DNA of 64,000 bases from Shewanella putrefaciens (GTDB taxonomy: Bacteria; Pseudomonadota; Gammaproteobacteria; Enterobacterales; Shewanellaceae), in NCBI RefSeq assembly GCF_016406305.1, contig NZ_CP066369.1:1630501-1694500 (forward strand). The letters are read 5' to 3'. The position numbers were made by a program, and so were the translations under genes. Under the pieces are notes generated by a model. It had not been told where the DNA came from and made no database searches. It was given only the letters and a program-made list of their open reading frames with translations. Shown here piece by piece: positions 11,005-19,106 of this stretch. The stretch's first letter is position 1. Each line of letters starts with the position of its first letter.

Positions 11005-11379
11005 CTAGCTGTAAATAGCTGAATAAATTAATAATAAAGATAGTTGGATGGAAAGTAGACCGATAAAACGGAATTTATTGTTGAAGTAGTGCGCCGACCA
11101 TAGGGCAAACTTTCTATGCAAGCTCGGAGGTGTGAACGCCAAGCCCACTCCTACACAAACTAAGACAATACCGATTGCAATAATGGCCTGCGGAAACCGA
11201 GTATCGGCTGCGTAAATGATAAAAATTAAACCCGCAATCATTCGGCTCACCACTTCCATAATATGGAAATAGGGCTGCTCGCTAAATGCAATAATGCCCT
11301 TAGAGAAAGACTCAGGTTTTACCGCCATCACTAGGCTTAATAACAACATCACTAGTCCAAAAGCTGCAATAAAGTACAT
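11005..11379 (-). CDS. Small four-helix membrane protein, copy A
   Basis: A 124-residue protein with four hydrophobic segments (about 1-19, 43-60, 66-84, 100-121) and short charged loops such as VKPESFSKG and PSLHRKFALWSAHYF. A second copy is encoded at 14095-14469; the two differ at nine residues, and the sequence around them is duplicated as well. Retention of both frames with mostly conservative changes suggests both may still be translated. I do not recognise a function. Copy A reads toward the gap before the 105-residue gene. Confidence 0.7.
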   Translation of the reverse strand: MYFIAAFGLVMLLLSLVMAVKPESFSKGIIAFSEQPYFHIMEVVSRMIAGLIFIIYAADTRFPQAIIAIGIVLVCVGVGLAFTPPSLHRKFALWSAHYFNNKFRFIGLLSIQLSLLLIYSAIYS

Positions 11380-11700
11380 AGTTATCCTTGATATAGCGAT
11401 GCTTTGATGTTGAAACTATAAATCCAGCGCCACAATTAAGCACTCTCATTCCAGTGACACGCCCTGCTTAAATCATAAAAAGTCATCCCTGAGGGCTCGA
11501 CGGCGGCATCTGCTGTATATGGATGTGCGAATGCCGCGGTCACATGGTCAATTGTGTTCCCGGCATAATAGTGACATTCCCCATATCCCTATGGGTCAGA
11601 TGTGAAAGAGCGGCCATGCCGCCAACGGTCACTTCCATGAGAGTGCTTTATTTCGTTAATTCCTGTGCATTTCTTAGCGGCAGTTTTCACACAATCATCT
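11008..11700. repeat. Long direct repeat, copy A
   Basis: This segment matches 14098-14790 closely over its whole length. It holds the 124-residue gene and the upstream structured element at 11438-11648. The match resumes at about 11881-12030, which corresponds to 14725-14861 in copy B, so copy A has gained an interrupting segment (about 11701-11880) that includes another palindromic element. The two copies are in the same orientation and bracket the VOC and LysR genes. Confidence 0.9.
11438..11648. repeat. Expanded palindromic element (12-bp outer arms)
   Basis: The outer arms AAGCACTCTCAT (11438-11449) and ATGAGAGTGCTT (11637-11648) are perfect inverted repeats. Inside lie the same pieces as in the compact element at 11795-11896: GTGACACGCC, TCATCCCTGAGGGCTC, GGCGGCAT, then ATGCCGCC and GGTCAC. 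Here two inserted stretches separate them, the larger (about 100 nt) placed at the tip of the main hairpin. It contains no gene. Confidence 0.8.
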
Positions 11701-11794
11701 TTTATTTTCAAGTAGATGCTTTAGATGCACACTTTTTCATCTCAGAAATATGTGGGTGCTGTCTTTTCATTTGAGACTATAAGTCCGGCTGTAC

Positions 11795-11896
11795 AATTAA
11801 GCACTCTCATTCCAGTGACACGCCATGAACTCATCCCTGAGGGCTCGACGGCGGCATCCATGCCGCCAACGGTCACTTCCATAAGAGTGCTTAATT
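11795..11896. repeat. Compact structured element with hairpin core
   Basis: The outer arms AATTAAGCACTCTCAT (11795-11810) and ATAAGAGTGCTTAATT (11881-11896) pair with one mismatch. Inside, GTGAC (11815-11819) pairs with GTCAC (11872-11876). The core holds two hairpins: a weak one, CTCA/TGAG, and a strong one, GGCGGCAT / ATGCCGCC (11850-11857, 11860-11867). The 62-nt core is homologous, in reverse orientation, to the core of the element at 18869-18964, while the outer arms are unrelated to it. Confidence 0.85.
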
Positions 11897-14094: not shown

Positions 14095-14469
14095 TTAAAT
14101 GTAAGTCGCTGAATAAATTAACAATAAAGATAGTGGGATGGAAAGTAGCCCGATAAAACGGAATTTATTGTTGAAGTAGTGCGCCGACCATAGGGCAAAC
14201 TTTCTATGCAATCTGGGTGGCGTGAGCGCCAATCCTACTCCGACGCAAATTAAGACAATACCTATTGCAAAAATGGCCTGCGGAAACCGAGTGTCGGCTG
14301 CATAAATGATAAAAATTAAACCCGCAATCATTCGGCTAACCACTTCCACAATATGGAAATAGGGCTGCTCGCTGAATGCAATAATGCCCTTAGAGAAAGA
14401 CTCAGGTCTTACCGCCATCACTAGGCTTAATAACAACATCACTAGTCCAAAAGCTGCAATAAAGTACAT
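14095..14469 (-). CDS. Small four-helix membrane protein, copy B
   Basis: The 124 residues differ from copy A (11005-11379) at nine positions, including K21R, M41V, I67F, F82L, S86R and Q112P. Length, start and the four hydrophobic segments are unchanged. It is convergent with the LysR gene, with only 6 bp between stops. Its presence together with identical flanking DNA shows it arose by segmental duplication. Function unknown. Confidence 0.7.
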   Translation of the reverse strand: MYFIAAFGLVMLLLSLVMAVRPESFSKGIIAFSEQPYFHIVEVVSRMIAGLIFIIYAADTRFPQAIFAIGIVLICVGVGLALTPPRLHRKFALWSAHYFNNKFRFIGLLSIPLSLLLIYSATYI

Positions 14470-14527
14470 AGTGATCCTTAATATAGCGATGCTTTGATGT
14501 TGAAACTATAAATCCAGCGCCACAATT

Positions 14528-14738
14528 AAGCACTCTCATTCCAGTGATACGCCCTGCTTAAATCATAAAAAGTCATCCTTGAGGGCTCGACGGCGGCATC
14601 TGCTGCATATGGATGTGCGAATGCCGCGGCCACATGGTCAATTGTGTTCCCGACATAATAGTGACATTCCCCATATCCCTATGGGTCAGATGTGAAAGAG
14701 CGGCCATGCCGTCAACGGTCACTTCCATGAGCGTGCTT
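14528..14738. repeat. Expanded palindromic element, copy in block B
   Basis: Counterpart of 11438-11648 with arms AAGCACTCTCAT (14528-14539) and ATGAGCGTGCTT (14727-14738), now with one mismatch. The internal parts differ from copy A at scattered bases only, so both kept the same two insertions relative to the compact element. Confidence 0.8.
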
Positions 14739-14827
14739 AATTTCGTTAATCCCTGTGTATCTTTTAGCCAGTTTCCACACTATCAATTTCTATTTTCAAG
14801 TCGGCATATCAGGGCAAAAATTCACTT

Positions 14828-15020: not shown

Positions 15021-18000
15021 ATGTCACAAATATCATCTAACCATTTCCTCAAAAAAGCCATAGAAAATCACACTCTAATTCCATTGGTTGGTGCTGGTGT
15101 ATCCATGTCAATTAAAAATATAAATGGTGATAGGGTTTTTCCGAGCTGGAAAGAGTTATTGCAAAGAGCTACCGAGAAATTACAGCCTGATATTGCCAAA
15201 CTAGTAAACCAAGCGGTAGATGCTGGGATGTTATTAGACGCAGCTGAAGAAGCAAAAAAACATCTCAGAGGTGATAGTTGGTTCAAATTTCTCGAATCTC
15301 AATTTGATCCTGATTTGAATAGTCTAGAGCAAAGCAGCTTTGATTTGCCAGCTGCATTATGGAAACTTAGCAGTCGAGTTATGACATTGAATTACGACAG
15401 AGTACTAGACCATGCTTCGGGAGTGTCTAATCTTAAAAGAATAACAAACTCATCTAATGCTACGTTAAATGCATTTCGCTCGCCGGCAGATCAAAAAATG
15501 ATTTGGCATCTACATGGTCATATAGATGAGCCTGAAAAACTCATTTTGACTTTTGATAGTTATAAAGATTTTTACGTGAATAAGAATGAATACGAACCTG
15601 CGATGCAAGTTCTGCAATCAATACTTGCGACTCAGAGCCTATTATTTGTGGGATGTAGCCTTAATGATGCGGATTTACTTGCGGAGCTGAGTAAACAGTA
15701 TGAATTATTTTCTGGTAATACTGCGGTACATTTTGCTCTCGTGCATCAAGATGACGAACCTCTTATTAGGATGAAACTTAGAAACTTAAAAAACATTGAA
15801 ATACTTACTTTTTCAGATTTTGGACAGCCTTTAATTGACACTGTAAATGAAATCGCATCATTGAAAACAGTAAAAAATCAGCTAGAAAATATGATCGTTC
15901 ATCAACCTTCAGCTGCAATAGTAAACAAACCACAAATAGCCTATCTAAGTGCAAAACCATTTGGCCTAACTTTAGGTGCCTTTGATGCTGTTGAAAAAGA
16001 ACTTAAGAAAAAGCCGCCATATGACATTGATAGCTTTACTCTTTCTTTAGAAAACTTACAGTCACTAAGTGACTTTAACTACCTAGTTCTGGCTTGTCAC
16101 ATAAAAAATGACAAACTCATCATTGAAAATGAATGGTGTGGTAGCGAGCGGGTTTCACTTGAACAGCTAGAAGAAAATCTCGATCTCGATGAGCTGAAAG
16201 GTATTATCATTATTTGTGATCAACTACCATCACAAGATGCTTTAAAATATGTTAATCTCCCGATCATATTTATCCCTGAACTATTGTCAGTTAATAATTT
16301 AAACAATCTTTGGTTCCAGCTATTCAAAAAACAATCATATCTTACACCCGAAAAAAATTGCATCATATGTAATGCTAGTCAATTTGATCTAGGTGAAAAA
16401 GTTAAATCATTTGATGGTAAGAGTCCTCTAAAAAAACTCAAGCTCCCAACTGAATTGTCTAAAGATGAAGTAGCTAAGTTCATTGGTCGTAAGCAGGATA
16501 TTGAAGAGGCTAGTCGTAAGCTTTTTGAAGCAAAGGCGCAAAATGAATGTCTAACCATTCTTGGAGCAGGAGGTTTGGGGAAAACTTCTTTAGTAAAAAA
16601 ACTTGCATATGAATATAACGAACGAAATCTGTTTGATTGTGGAATTTTCTTTATAGACTGTGAGCATTTAACCAGTTATCAACAGTTTCATCGTCATATT
16701 GCTGGCGCATTTGAATTAGCAGATTCGGTTGATGTTATTGAACATGTCAGTGAAAACCCTGAATTTAGGCATGGCGAGCGCCTTATCATTATCGATAACG
16801 CAGAAAGTTTACTGTTACTGAGCGAAAAAAACAAAATTCTCCATCTGCTTGGCAGAGTAAATGAGCTCGCGACTCTTATTGTTACTAGTAGAGAAAGTCT
16901 TGATATTCCTTCAGAATCGACCTACCAATTGCGAGATTTTGTCGCAGATGAAGCTTTTGAACTTTTTGAAAGCAAGGCTAAAAGACAGTTTTTAACTGAA
17001 GAAGCATTATTTTTAAAAGAACATATTTTGAAAGAATATCTAGATCATAATCCTCTTGCTATTTCATTAGTATCTAGCGCTATGATCAGAGGTAAAAATT
17101 TAGAAGAATTAAGGGATGATTTAAAAGAAAACTTCTTTGAACTAACACGAAAAGACCAAGGTAGTTCAATAAATCCAGAAGATAGAAATATTGATCGTAG
17201 AAGTTCTATTTACAATAGTATCGATTACTCTTATAAGCATCTTGCACTACAATCAAAAGAAGCGCTAATCAAACTTTCATATTTCCCAGATGGTATTGAT
17301 CTGGTTAATTTTAAGAAATTAACAGAGCAAGATGCCAAGTCAAAAGGTAAGGCTCCAATTAAAGATGTAACAATTAAGGCGTTGCAAGATAAATCCTTAG
17401 TGCAAACTAGCCAACACTATATTCGCTTACATCCGCTCGTTGCCCGTTTTGCTAAAAGCAAAGTGAATCCAGAAGATGAAGCAACTTACTTGCAGACTAT
17501 TTTTGAATTTCAGCTTAGTTTTGTAAAGTCGTTGGCATTATTAGGTCGTGATTATAATTTAGATAAACAAGTGTTGGCGAAAAAAATTGCAAACACGCAA
17601 ATAAATAACTTTTGCTTTATGTTGGAGAAACTTTCGCCGAATTTTAATGAACAAGATATTGCTGACTACTATGGGAGTTTATCGTCTTTACTTGGCAGAC
17701 TGGAAATATATCAAGATTTGTATGATGCACTTACGCTATCTGTAGAGCGATTTAAAAATAATACTGCACTATATCGACTCATTAATATCGGTCGCTTAAG
17801 TAATGAGTACTACTTAGGTAATTTTAATTTAGCTTATTTGAAACTACATGATTTATTGCCAGTTAAAAACTGGCTAGCTCTTGATTATAACAATAATATT
17901 GAAAGAGCTACTTTTGTTGCTGCATCAGCAATATACGGGAATGAAGGTATGGAGATAGAGGAGGCCATTTATTATAAAAAGCATGGTATTAAAGACAGAT

Positions 18001-18599
18001 GTTATGATTCAGCACTAAGAAATATTGGAGTTCTTAGCCAGAAATGGGCTCAAGTGTGTATGAAAAATGCTGAGTCACTCTATGTGAAATGGACAATGAG
18101 CGAGTTGACGCTTGAAGAGTTAAATGATTATTTTGAACATATGCACCCTAAAGCTCATATCCAAATTGCAGTAACACTGACACTAAAAGCCAAGTTGACT
18201 CGTCTTAATAAAGACGAAATTAGTAAATTAGTTGTTGTTAACCCTTATACGCAGGGTGTTAAGTACTTGTTAGGTGCTATGAGTGCAGAAAATACCGCTG
18301 AAGCTAAAAAGTTATTTAAACAAGCTTTACCTGAGCTTAAACATATCAAGTTTGCTTATACAGAAGCGCTACTGGAATATGCAACTTGGTTAGATACTCA
18401 AGGAGATTCTGAATTTGAGACTGTTTATAACGAAGGATTAGCATCTGCAAGACAGTACCATTATCGTTTTTTACAACATGGCTTTTTACAAATCAAAATG
18501 GATACTAAGATCGCCTACAACGAAGCCGACTACCCACTACCAGACGATGAGGATTTTAGCTCTTACATTAAGCAACTTATAGGGTATTGTGAAAAATAA
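15021..18599 (+). CDS. SIR2 + CHAT-like + NB-ARC/STAND + helical-repeat protein, probable anti-phage effector
   Basis: The 1192-residue protein has four parts. Residues 1-280 are a SIR2-type domain: GAGVS at 24-28, TLNYD with N124, WHLHG with H165, and VGCSLND at 210-216. N124 and H165 correspond to the catalytic pair of NAD-consuming defence SIR2 domains. Residues 305-440 look like a CHAT/caspase-fold domain, with H360 in LACH and C399 in IIICDQ. Residues 485-815 are an NB-ARC-type ATPase: P-loop GAGGLGKTS at 515-523, Walker B IIIDN at 589-593, TSRES at 622-626, HNPLA at 676-680, and winged-helix LHPLV at 803-807. Residues 820-1192 are helical, probably TPR-like, as the sensor. There are no membrane segments. 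SIR2-STAND proteins sense phage proteins and deplete NAD. It is clearly AT-richer than its neighbours, a single-gene unit in a repeat-rich accessory region. The CHAT call is inference. Confidence 0.85.
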   Translation: MSQISSNHFLKKAIENHTLIPLVGAGVSMSIKNINGDRVFPSWKELLQRATEKLQPDIAKLVNQAVDAGMLLDAAEEAKKHLRGDSWFKFLESQFDPDLNSLEQSSFDLPAALWKLSSRVMTLNYDRVLDHASGVSNLKRITNSSNATLNAFRSPADQKMIWHLHGHIDEPEKLILTFDSYKDFYVNKNEYEPAMQVLQSILATQSLLFVGCSLNDADLLAELSKQYELFSGNTAVHFALVHQDDEPLIRMKLRNLKNIEILTFSDFGQPLIDTVNEIASLKTVKNQLENMIVHQPSAAIVNKPQIAYLSAKPFGLTLGAFDAVEKELKKKPPYDIDSFTLSLENLQSLSDFNYLVLACHIKNDKLIIENEWCGSERVSLEQLEENLDLDELKGIIIICDQLPSQDALKYVNLPIIFIPELLSVNNLNNLWFQLFKKQSYLTPEKNCIICNASQFDLGEKVKSFDGKSPLKKLKLPTELSKDEVAKFIGRKQDIEEASRKLFEAKAQNECLTILGAGGLGKTSLVKKLAYEYNERNLFDCGIFFIDCEHLTSYQQFHRHIAGAFELADSVDVIEHVSENPEFRHGERLIIIDNAESLLLLSEKNKILHLLGRVNELATLIVTSRESLDIPSESTYQLRDFVADEAFELFESKAKRQFLTEEALFLKEHILKEYLDHNPLAISLVSSAMIRGKNLEELRDDLKENFFELTRKDQGSSINPEDRNIDRRSSIYNSIDYSYKHLALQSKEALIKLSYFPDGIDLVNFKKLTEQDAKSKGKAPIKDVTIKALQDKSLVQTSQHYIRLHPLVARFAKSKVNPEDEATYLQTIFEFQLSFVKSLALLGRDYNLDKQVLAKKIANTQINNFCFMLEKLSPNFNEQDIADYYGSLSSLLGRLEIYQDLYDALTLSVERFKNNTALYRLINIGRLSNEYYLGNFNLAYLKLHDLLPVKNWLALDYNNNIERATFVAASAIYGNEGMEIEEAIYYKKHGIKDRCYDSALRNIGVLSQKWAQVCMKNAESLYVKWTMSELTLEELNDYFEHMHPKAHIQIAVTLTLKAKLTRLNKDEISKLVVVNPYTQGVKYLLGAMSAENTAEAKKLFKQALPELKHIKFAYTEALLEYATWLDTQGDSEFETVYNEGLASARQYHYRFLQHGFLQIKMDTKIAYNEADYPLPDDEDFSSYIKQLIGYCEK

Positions 18600-18700: not shown

Positions 18701-18868
18701 TGTTTCTCAAGTAGAAGATTGAATACGCCTAAACCCTTAATGGCCGTTCTTCACAGATAATCTATATCTATAATGGAATGTCGCTACTTAGTGAGAAGAA
18801 TCATTCACGATATAAGTTTGAGATTTTAGTTTCCACATGCTACAGATTACGCATAATGTTAGCTAAGG

Positions 18869-18964
18869 CGAATTCAACTGCTGACGTGACCTTCGATGAC
18901 ATGGATGTCATCGTAGAGCCGCCATGGATGGCTTCACGGCGAGTCACGGAAGCAGTTGAATTCG
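18869..18964. repeat. Compact structured element, three-way-junction type
   Basis: Perfect 14-bp outer arms CGAATTCAACTGCT (18869-18882) and AGCAGTTGAATTCG (18951-18964) enclose GTGAC (18886-18890) / GTCAC (18943-18947). Within are two hairpins, CGATGACAT-GG-ATGTCATCG (18894-18913) and GCCAT-GG-ATGGC (18921-18932). The core is 62 nt, the same length as in 11795-11896, and aligns with that core when reversed (46 of 62 identical). It has no coding sense; the rest of the 18600-19154 gap holds only the other palindrome and the terminator. Confidence 0.85.
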
Positions 18965-19056
18965 GCGTACAAACGAGTGACATATTAAGTGTTTAATCAT
19001 ATGCAGGTTGCTAGGACGGAGTAATTTTGTCTCTTTAACGTGCAGCTAATTCATTG

Positions 19057-19106
19057 TCTAATAGCAAAACAGCCGCAAAAATCTTTGCGGCTGTTTTGCT
19101 ATTAGA
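19057..19106 (-). terminator. Very strong terminator, 23-bp perfect stem
   Basis: Arms 19057-19079 and 19084-19106 are perfectly complementary with a 4-nt loop; the GC part is CAGCCGC. A/T-rich outer parts let it work in both directions. It lies 48 bp after the panP stop on the minus strand. Confidence 0.85.

Follow-up and report, generated by a model that had tools for sequence, protein, structure and literature searches.

The window, meaning the whole 64,000-nt stretch of the Shewanella putrefaciens chromosome analysed here, contains copies of a structured repeat that we call the Y element, two of which flank a large gene. The features discussed below are as follows:

11434..11652, plus strand: long A1-type Y element, from sequence and fold (arms 11434-11458 and 11628-11652)
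11795..11896, plus strand: A1-type Y element, arms and core 11815-11876 (94.7 bits)
14524..14741, plus strand: second long A1-type element, from sequence, with end coordinates set by offset
15021..18599, plus strand: SIR2/NB-ARC (STAND-like) cargo gene, 1192 aa, from Pfam and PADLOC
18866..18967, minus strand: D-type Y element, arms and core 18886-18947 (83.7 bits)

The element at 14524..14741 is the left end of the SIR2 island and the D-type element is its inward-facing right end. The long element at 11434..11652 has the arms and stem of the A1-type element at 11795..11896; it differs in its longer minor hairpin and in an additional multi-hairpin insertion at the main-hairpin apex, and its genome BLAST match was split. 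A 704-bp segment was found in two copies of 94% identity (11010-11713 and 14100-14801), each with an ORF of 124 aa, which has no Pfam match, and a long A1-type Y element behind it; the left end of the island is part of this duplication. Just beyond the D-type element, a near-perfect long hairpin (GCAAAACAGCCGC..., 19060-19101) was noted that is retained in genome G002. No Rfam family matched the Y elements at the gathering threshold, and the window's Rfam matches were three tRNAs only.

We sought to characterize the structure shared by these elements. As the preliminary description had stated, the cores at 11815-11876 (plus) and 18886-18947 (minus) align without gaps and are identical at 46 of 62 positions. 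The compensatory nature of the differences was borne out as well: 12 of the 16 form six compensated pairs (16-27, 17-26, 33-56, 37-52, 38-51 and 40-49), namely the five named earlier and 33-56 (G-C to T-A). Folded as DNA, both copies lie far below dinucleotide shuffles (z = -7.0 and -8.9; 0 of 200 shuffles were as stable), and the RNA folds of the elements are very stable on either strand. Across 140 aligned copies from several Shewanella genomes, standard pairs occupied 95.4% of pair cells and 18 of 21 pairs had changes on both sides. The covariation score was 0.649; sliding the 3' partner by 1-3 columns gave no more than 0.107, and shuffles gave 0.189. This alignment was fitted to a covariance model, which favours pairing, and the distance to the slid and shuffled controls is too large for such fitting to explain the covariation. 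It is near certain that the Y elements are a real structured family. Selection on structure, one of two interpretations offered earlier, is strongly supported by these 140 copies; the other, flanks made from target DNA, was not supported. In some copies (L045, L052, L054 and L206) and at 11434-11652 in the window, the main hairpin apex carries an extra 50 nt or more that forms more hairpins with ATGGATG apices, and the fork appears to grow by hairpin addition.

The family is large. BLAST with the first copy found 42 places in the 4.58-Mb host genome, and the core covariance model search proposed in the preliminary description, with a model built on the core alone and the arms left out, returned 59 host-genome matches at E < 1 (46 at E <= 0.001), or 52 loci once tandem copies were merged. 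Neither a lack of further copies nor differences that break pairing, the outcomes that would have spoken against the family, were encountered. The elements are dispersed and intergenic, with 9-56 matches in 22 of 24 genomes of the genus (host included), and four genomes from other families of the order gave 7-62 covariance-model matches. We found no earlier description of them in the open-access literature, most subscription journals lying outside its scope.

The copies sort into subfamilies by arm and stem, as follows:

A1: arms GATTAAGCACTGTCATTCCA / TTACATGACAGTGCTTAATC
A2: arms ATTGTCATTGTTTCCCC / GTTGCAACAATGCCAAT
B: arms and stem GCCATGGTGTTCGCTCA-CCGAC / GTCGT-CTCGCTAATCACCATGGC
C: arms and stem GCAGGGTATCGCACG-CAGGC / GCCTG-CTTACCGATACCCTGC
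D: the copy at 18866-18967

The foot of the element is a paired stem of GTGAC/GTCAC type that differs between subfamilies. With both outer arms taken from one copy, 13.7 of 24 positions paired; the values were 9.0 for arms of different copies and 8.3 after shuffling. The arms had been called unrelated, which is correct between subfamilies and does not hold within them, as the AATTAAGCACTCT-type arm was seen again in about ten host-genome copies with compensated changes (for example CACTAT/ATAGTG and TACTTG/CAAGTA). Because arms recur at unrelated sites, they are part of the element and not of the target: they are inherited parts that stay self-complementary despite sequence drift. The suggested mobility mechanism that creates inverted flanks from target DNA is not supported, given this travel of arms with the element to unrelated sites, and the proposed comparison with empty sites likewise found no arm sequence at the unoccupied sites examined in related genomes. 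Type C copies seem to terminate in CTAAATA...TATTTAG, and at the orthologous site of one of them the element is missing in two relatives. One insertion sequence, whose ORF was read as an IS110-type transposase, sits at the minor-hairpin apex (CATCATCC|CTGGATG) of five Y elements of G000 (L040, 780841; L041, 2831932; L043, 3316199; L044, 1188434; L050, 3839905); the fork therefore seems to be a preferred target of this insertion sequence.

The most distinctive trend, and one absent from the preliminary description, was the orientation of neighbouring copies. Within 6 kb, the 52 host loci formed 12 inward, 0 outward and 3 tandem pairs; orientation shuffles gave a mean of 3.7 inward pairs and none of 20,000 attained 12. 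The 15 close pairs compare to 3.3 expected with random positions. Five further Shewanella genomes gave 30 inward, 1 outward and 8 tandem pairs within 7.5 kb. Roughly half of the loci are solitary, and G028, one of these five Shewanella genomes, has 55 copies with zero inward pairs; its element population looks solitary, so solitary copies can predominate. One host pair (618128/623904, A1 and C) encloses ORFs resembling the core-like genes ubiD and fre and is probably coincidental. The expectation that an island's two ends would resemble each other most proved false: they are no more similar than ends of different islands and often come from different subfamilies. In host islands with a B end, the opposite end was A-type, which fits distinct left and right ends. 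Islands of G018 often have, at both ends, two or three units in tandem with a spacing of about 290 bp, as if islands had nested repeatedly at one place.

The inward pairs enclose about 1-6 kb of unrelated genes, among which defense genes were frequently encountered. These included Gabija (L044; GajA 9e-269 and GajB 9e-252, both also in L204), ShosTA (L049; ShosA 7e-46), an NsnA/GmrSD-N protein with a HEPN protein (L052), a type IV restriction enzyme (mREase IV; L213), PDC-M65AB (L215), PDC-M02AB (L173), a CARF6 protein with ORC/CDC6-like and phosphoesterase partners (L192) and, at the domain level, HSDR_N (L051), Schlafen (L200) and a DpnII-like nuclease (L191). The 1192-aa protein in the window matched Pfam SIR2_2 (3.6e-25) and NB-ARC (1e-7), with PADLOC matches to LmuA and the ThsA N-terminal; judged from these matches, its gene is probably anti-phage. 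A small control took ten chromosomal proteins from flanks that were either nearby or orthologous; PADLOC matched none of them over its full length to a dedicated defense gene and gave only partial or weak matches, the largest of which covered 42% of a DpdF profile. Other islands hold non-defense genes or genes of no known function, and the elements are not confined to defense cargo. One Y-bounded island (L191, 1016-1975; G018 1023418-1024374) has an integron-type integrase gene inside it, followed by genes including the DpnII-like nuclease.

Comparison between relatives revealed both absence of islands and exchange of their cargo. A 5.2-kb tnpA-bearing island of G000 is absent from G002 and G006, where the flanking genes are about 100 bp apart. 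The orthologous site of a 3.7-kb G018 island is empty in G002, G004, G006 and G007, and that of another G018 island is empty in G003; both lie in intergenic DNA directly after an intrinsic terminator and are the two best-resolved cases. At the GmrSD site, both A1 ends and both flanks are kept in G000 and G006 with different cargo (GmrSD_N and HEPN proteins in G000; a ParE-type toxin and a 214-aa protein in G006), a third cargo adjoins the same flanking gene in G020, and only part of the left arm remains in G002. At the window site, the D end and its flank are conserved in G002, with an HNH nuclease gene beside the D end where the window has the SIR2 gene; in G006 the D end is present in partly decayed form. 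Base-exact empty sites or insertion borders were sought in the related genomes and none were obtained, because these relatives are too diverged in intergenic gaps.

An intriguing question is which enzyme could act on such ends. No gene common to the islands, and no shared transposase, was found that could serve as mobiliser. A search for a RAYT via PF01797 gave only a plain IS200-type gene. Inside the inward pair L050, in which the left A2 element is split by the IS110-like insertion and the right element is of type B, an ORF beside the B element encodes a 348-aa protein with NHYH and YVDLNP. TnpA_REP subclass 2.3, an HUH transposase reported without REP partners, is characterized by NHYH and YVDLNP, a length of about 325 aa and occurrence in Alteromonadales (Quentin 2018, PMC6006769); the candidate agrees with this in motifs and size and was found in Shewanella and Photobacterium. 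It had no Pfam match and a weak NCBIfam match (4e-11, under the cut-off). Its profile found nothing among solved structures, and Foldseek with a low-confidence model (mean pLDDT 54.6) returned mostly IS200/IS605 transposases, none significant. In Shewanella sp. ANA-3 (L093) the gene likewise lies between an A1 and a B element, so that A2...B and A1...B pairs both enclose it, with movement of the gene by those ends being putative; a distant relative (46% identity, NHLH) lies within an element pair of G018 (L193).

Y elements were found 144-516 bp downstream of tnpA 2.3 in nine loci. Of the 23 Y matches in the tnpA loci, 11 lay downstream of the gene at a distance of no more than 600 bp, each of them on the minus strand, compared to 0.9 expected, an approximate value since the Shewanella locus number is itself approximate and related loci are not independent. 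Many tnpA 2.3 copies have no detectable Y element; the gene is absent at E <= 1e-30 from the element-bearing genomes G006, G017, G020, G021 and G022, and is present in G001, where elements are undetectable. Over 40 genomes its presence tracked the elements poorly, and the gene appears to have separate borders (GGGGACAG...GTCCC); the enzyme is therefore a candidate only. Mobilization of the islands by TnpA_REP subclass 2.3 is the best candidate mechanism, and a tentative one. A scan of the 3' flanks of tnpA for perfect hairpins (stem >= 7) was uninformative because Y elements are imperfect. In several genomes (L083, L089, L092, L093, L100 and L104), the tnpA 2.3 unit has its first 50-300 bp tandemly repeated upstream of the gene.

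We consider it moderately probable (about 0.6) that Y elements form the structured termini of small mobile cargo islands that are non-autonomous. An end would be a long imperfect palindrome in which a variable, self-complementary outer arm leads to a stem (GTGAC/GTCAC or a variant of it) and a two-hairpin fork with apices of ATCC type; two such ends, facing inward, would enclose about 1-6 kb of cargo, in many cases a defense system. An HUH-type single-strand nuclease may recognise the folded ends in trans and move or amplify them. Solitary copies would then be MITE-like single ends, and cargo at old sites could be exchanged via the shared ends.

The main rival is that single MITE- or REP-like palindromes spread and that pairs merely offer shared homology for RecA-dependent swapping of whatever lies between. 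Fixed ends with changing cargo at the GmrSD, HSDR and SIR2 sites, the numerous solitary copies (all unpaired in G028) and the frequent mixture of subfamilies at one island's ends all speak for it. Alone, however, swapping yields neither the strict inward orientation nor the absence of whole islands, both ends included, at orthologous sites. We regard it as unlikely as the sole explanation, roughly one chance in a handful, and such exchange may act alongside mobility. A function at the RNA level, in which the fold is selected because the elements insulate acquired operons by bidirectional termination or mRNA stabilisation, agrees with the stable RNA folds of both strands and with the intergenic location beside terminators, and could coexist with mobility. 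Termination, however, needs neither forked heads with conserved loop sequence nor strict inward orientation, no T-tract rule was apparent and solitary copies are common; we consider this improbable as the explanation of the family. The similarity of the cargo to cassette genes and the integron-type tyrosine integrase (PF00589 with PF13495) in one G018 island recall attC-like sites of an integron integrase. That integrase was not found (E <= 1e-40) in G000, G002, G006 or G016, genomes with 24-46 elements apiece, and the elements face each other, unlike direct-repeat attC; as integrase distribution and element orientation contradict it, the integron hypothesis was rejected as very improbable.

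Returning to mobile islands, these results suggest an undescribed bacterial route for moving defense genes. A more specific reading, which we hold tentatively and at clearly less than even odds, is an undescribed transposon class, HUH-mobilised, with forked covarying ends and exchange of anti-phage cargo, in which the Y element is the missing DNA partner of TnpA_REP 2.3. Where no phage, plasmid or ICE serves as vector, the turnover of defense genes among close relatives is largely unexplained. A recognisable DNA end at both borders makes islands findable from sequence alone, including those with uncharacterised cargo and possibly new defense systems, and Y elements offer a testable substrate for a transposase subclass reported to have none.

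Among known systems, REPs and REPINs with their TnpA_REP (RAYT) enzymes (Quentin 2018, PMC6006769; Di Nocera 2013, PMC3733652) are likewise dispersed intergenic palindromes with many copies, inverted pairs and linkage to an HUH Y1 tnpA gene. A REP is a single hairpin of 20-40 bp, whereas Y elements are about 100 bp with a two-hairpin fork, lack the GTAG foot and the unpaired GTAG/GTRG (or CGTC) tag by which REPs are defined, bracket kilobases of cargo as pairs, and are linked to a tnpA of subclass 2.3, reported without REPs. TIRtrons (TIRYT) combine a Y1-type tnpA with terminal repeats related to GGGGWSAS (PMC3733652). They resemble the present case in this combination and in having genomic families of such repeats, whereas Y elements stand apart from the gene's GGGGACAG borders and surround unrelated cargo. 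Mobile insertion cassettes carry passenger genes between transposon ends with the transposase absent, and these ends match those found on an active autonomous transposon; Y islands are similarly non-autonomous, with passengers between an end pair and no shared transposase gene, but their ends are covarying forked palindromes rather than DDE-type terminal inverted repeats, and the parent transposon is putative. In the minimal mobile elements of Neisseria, cassettes that frequently hold restriction genes alternate at a single chromosomal site, an alternation of cargo shared with Y islands; their borders are conserved genes, whereas Y islands are bordered by a structured repeat that is dispersed. 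Integron attC sites, which lie in direct-repeat arrays served by an IntI, also keep a folded single-strand structure over sequence and flank cassette-like cargo, but Y elements do not fit them in orientation, in integrase distribution or in end motifs.
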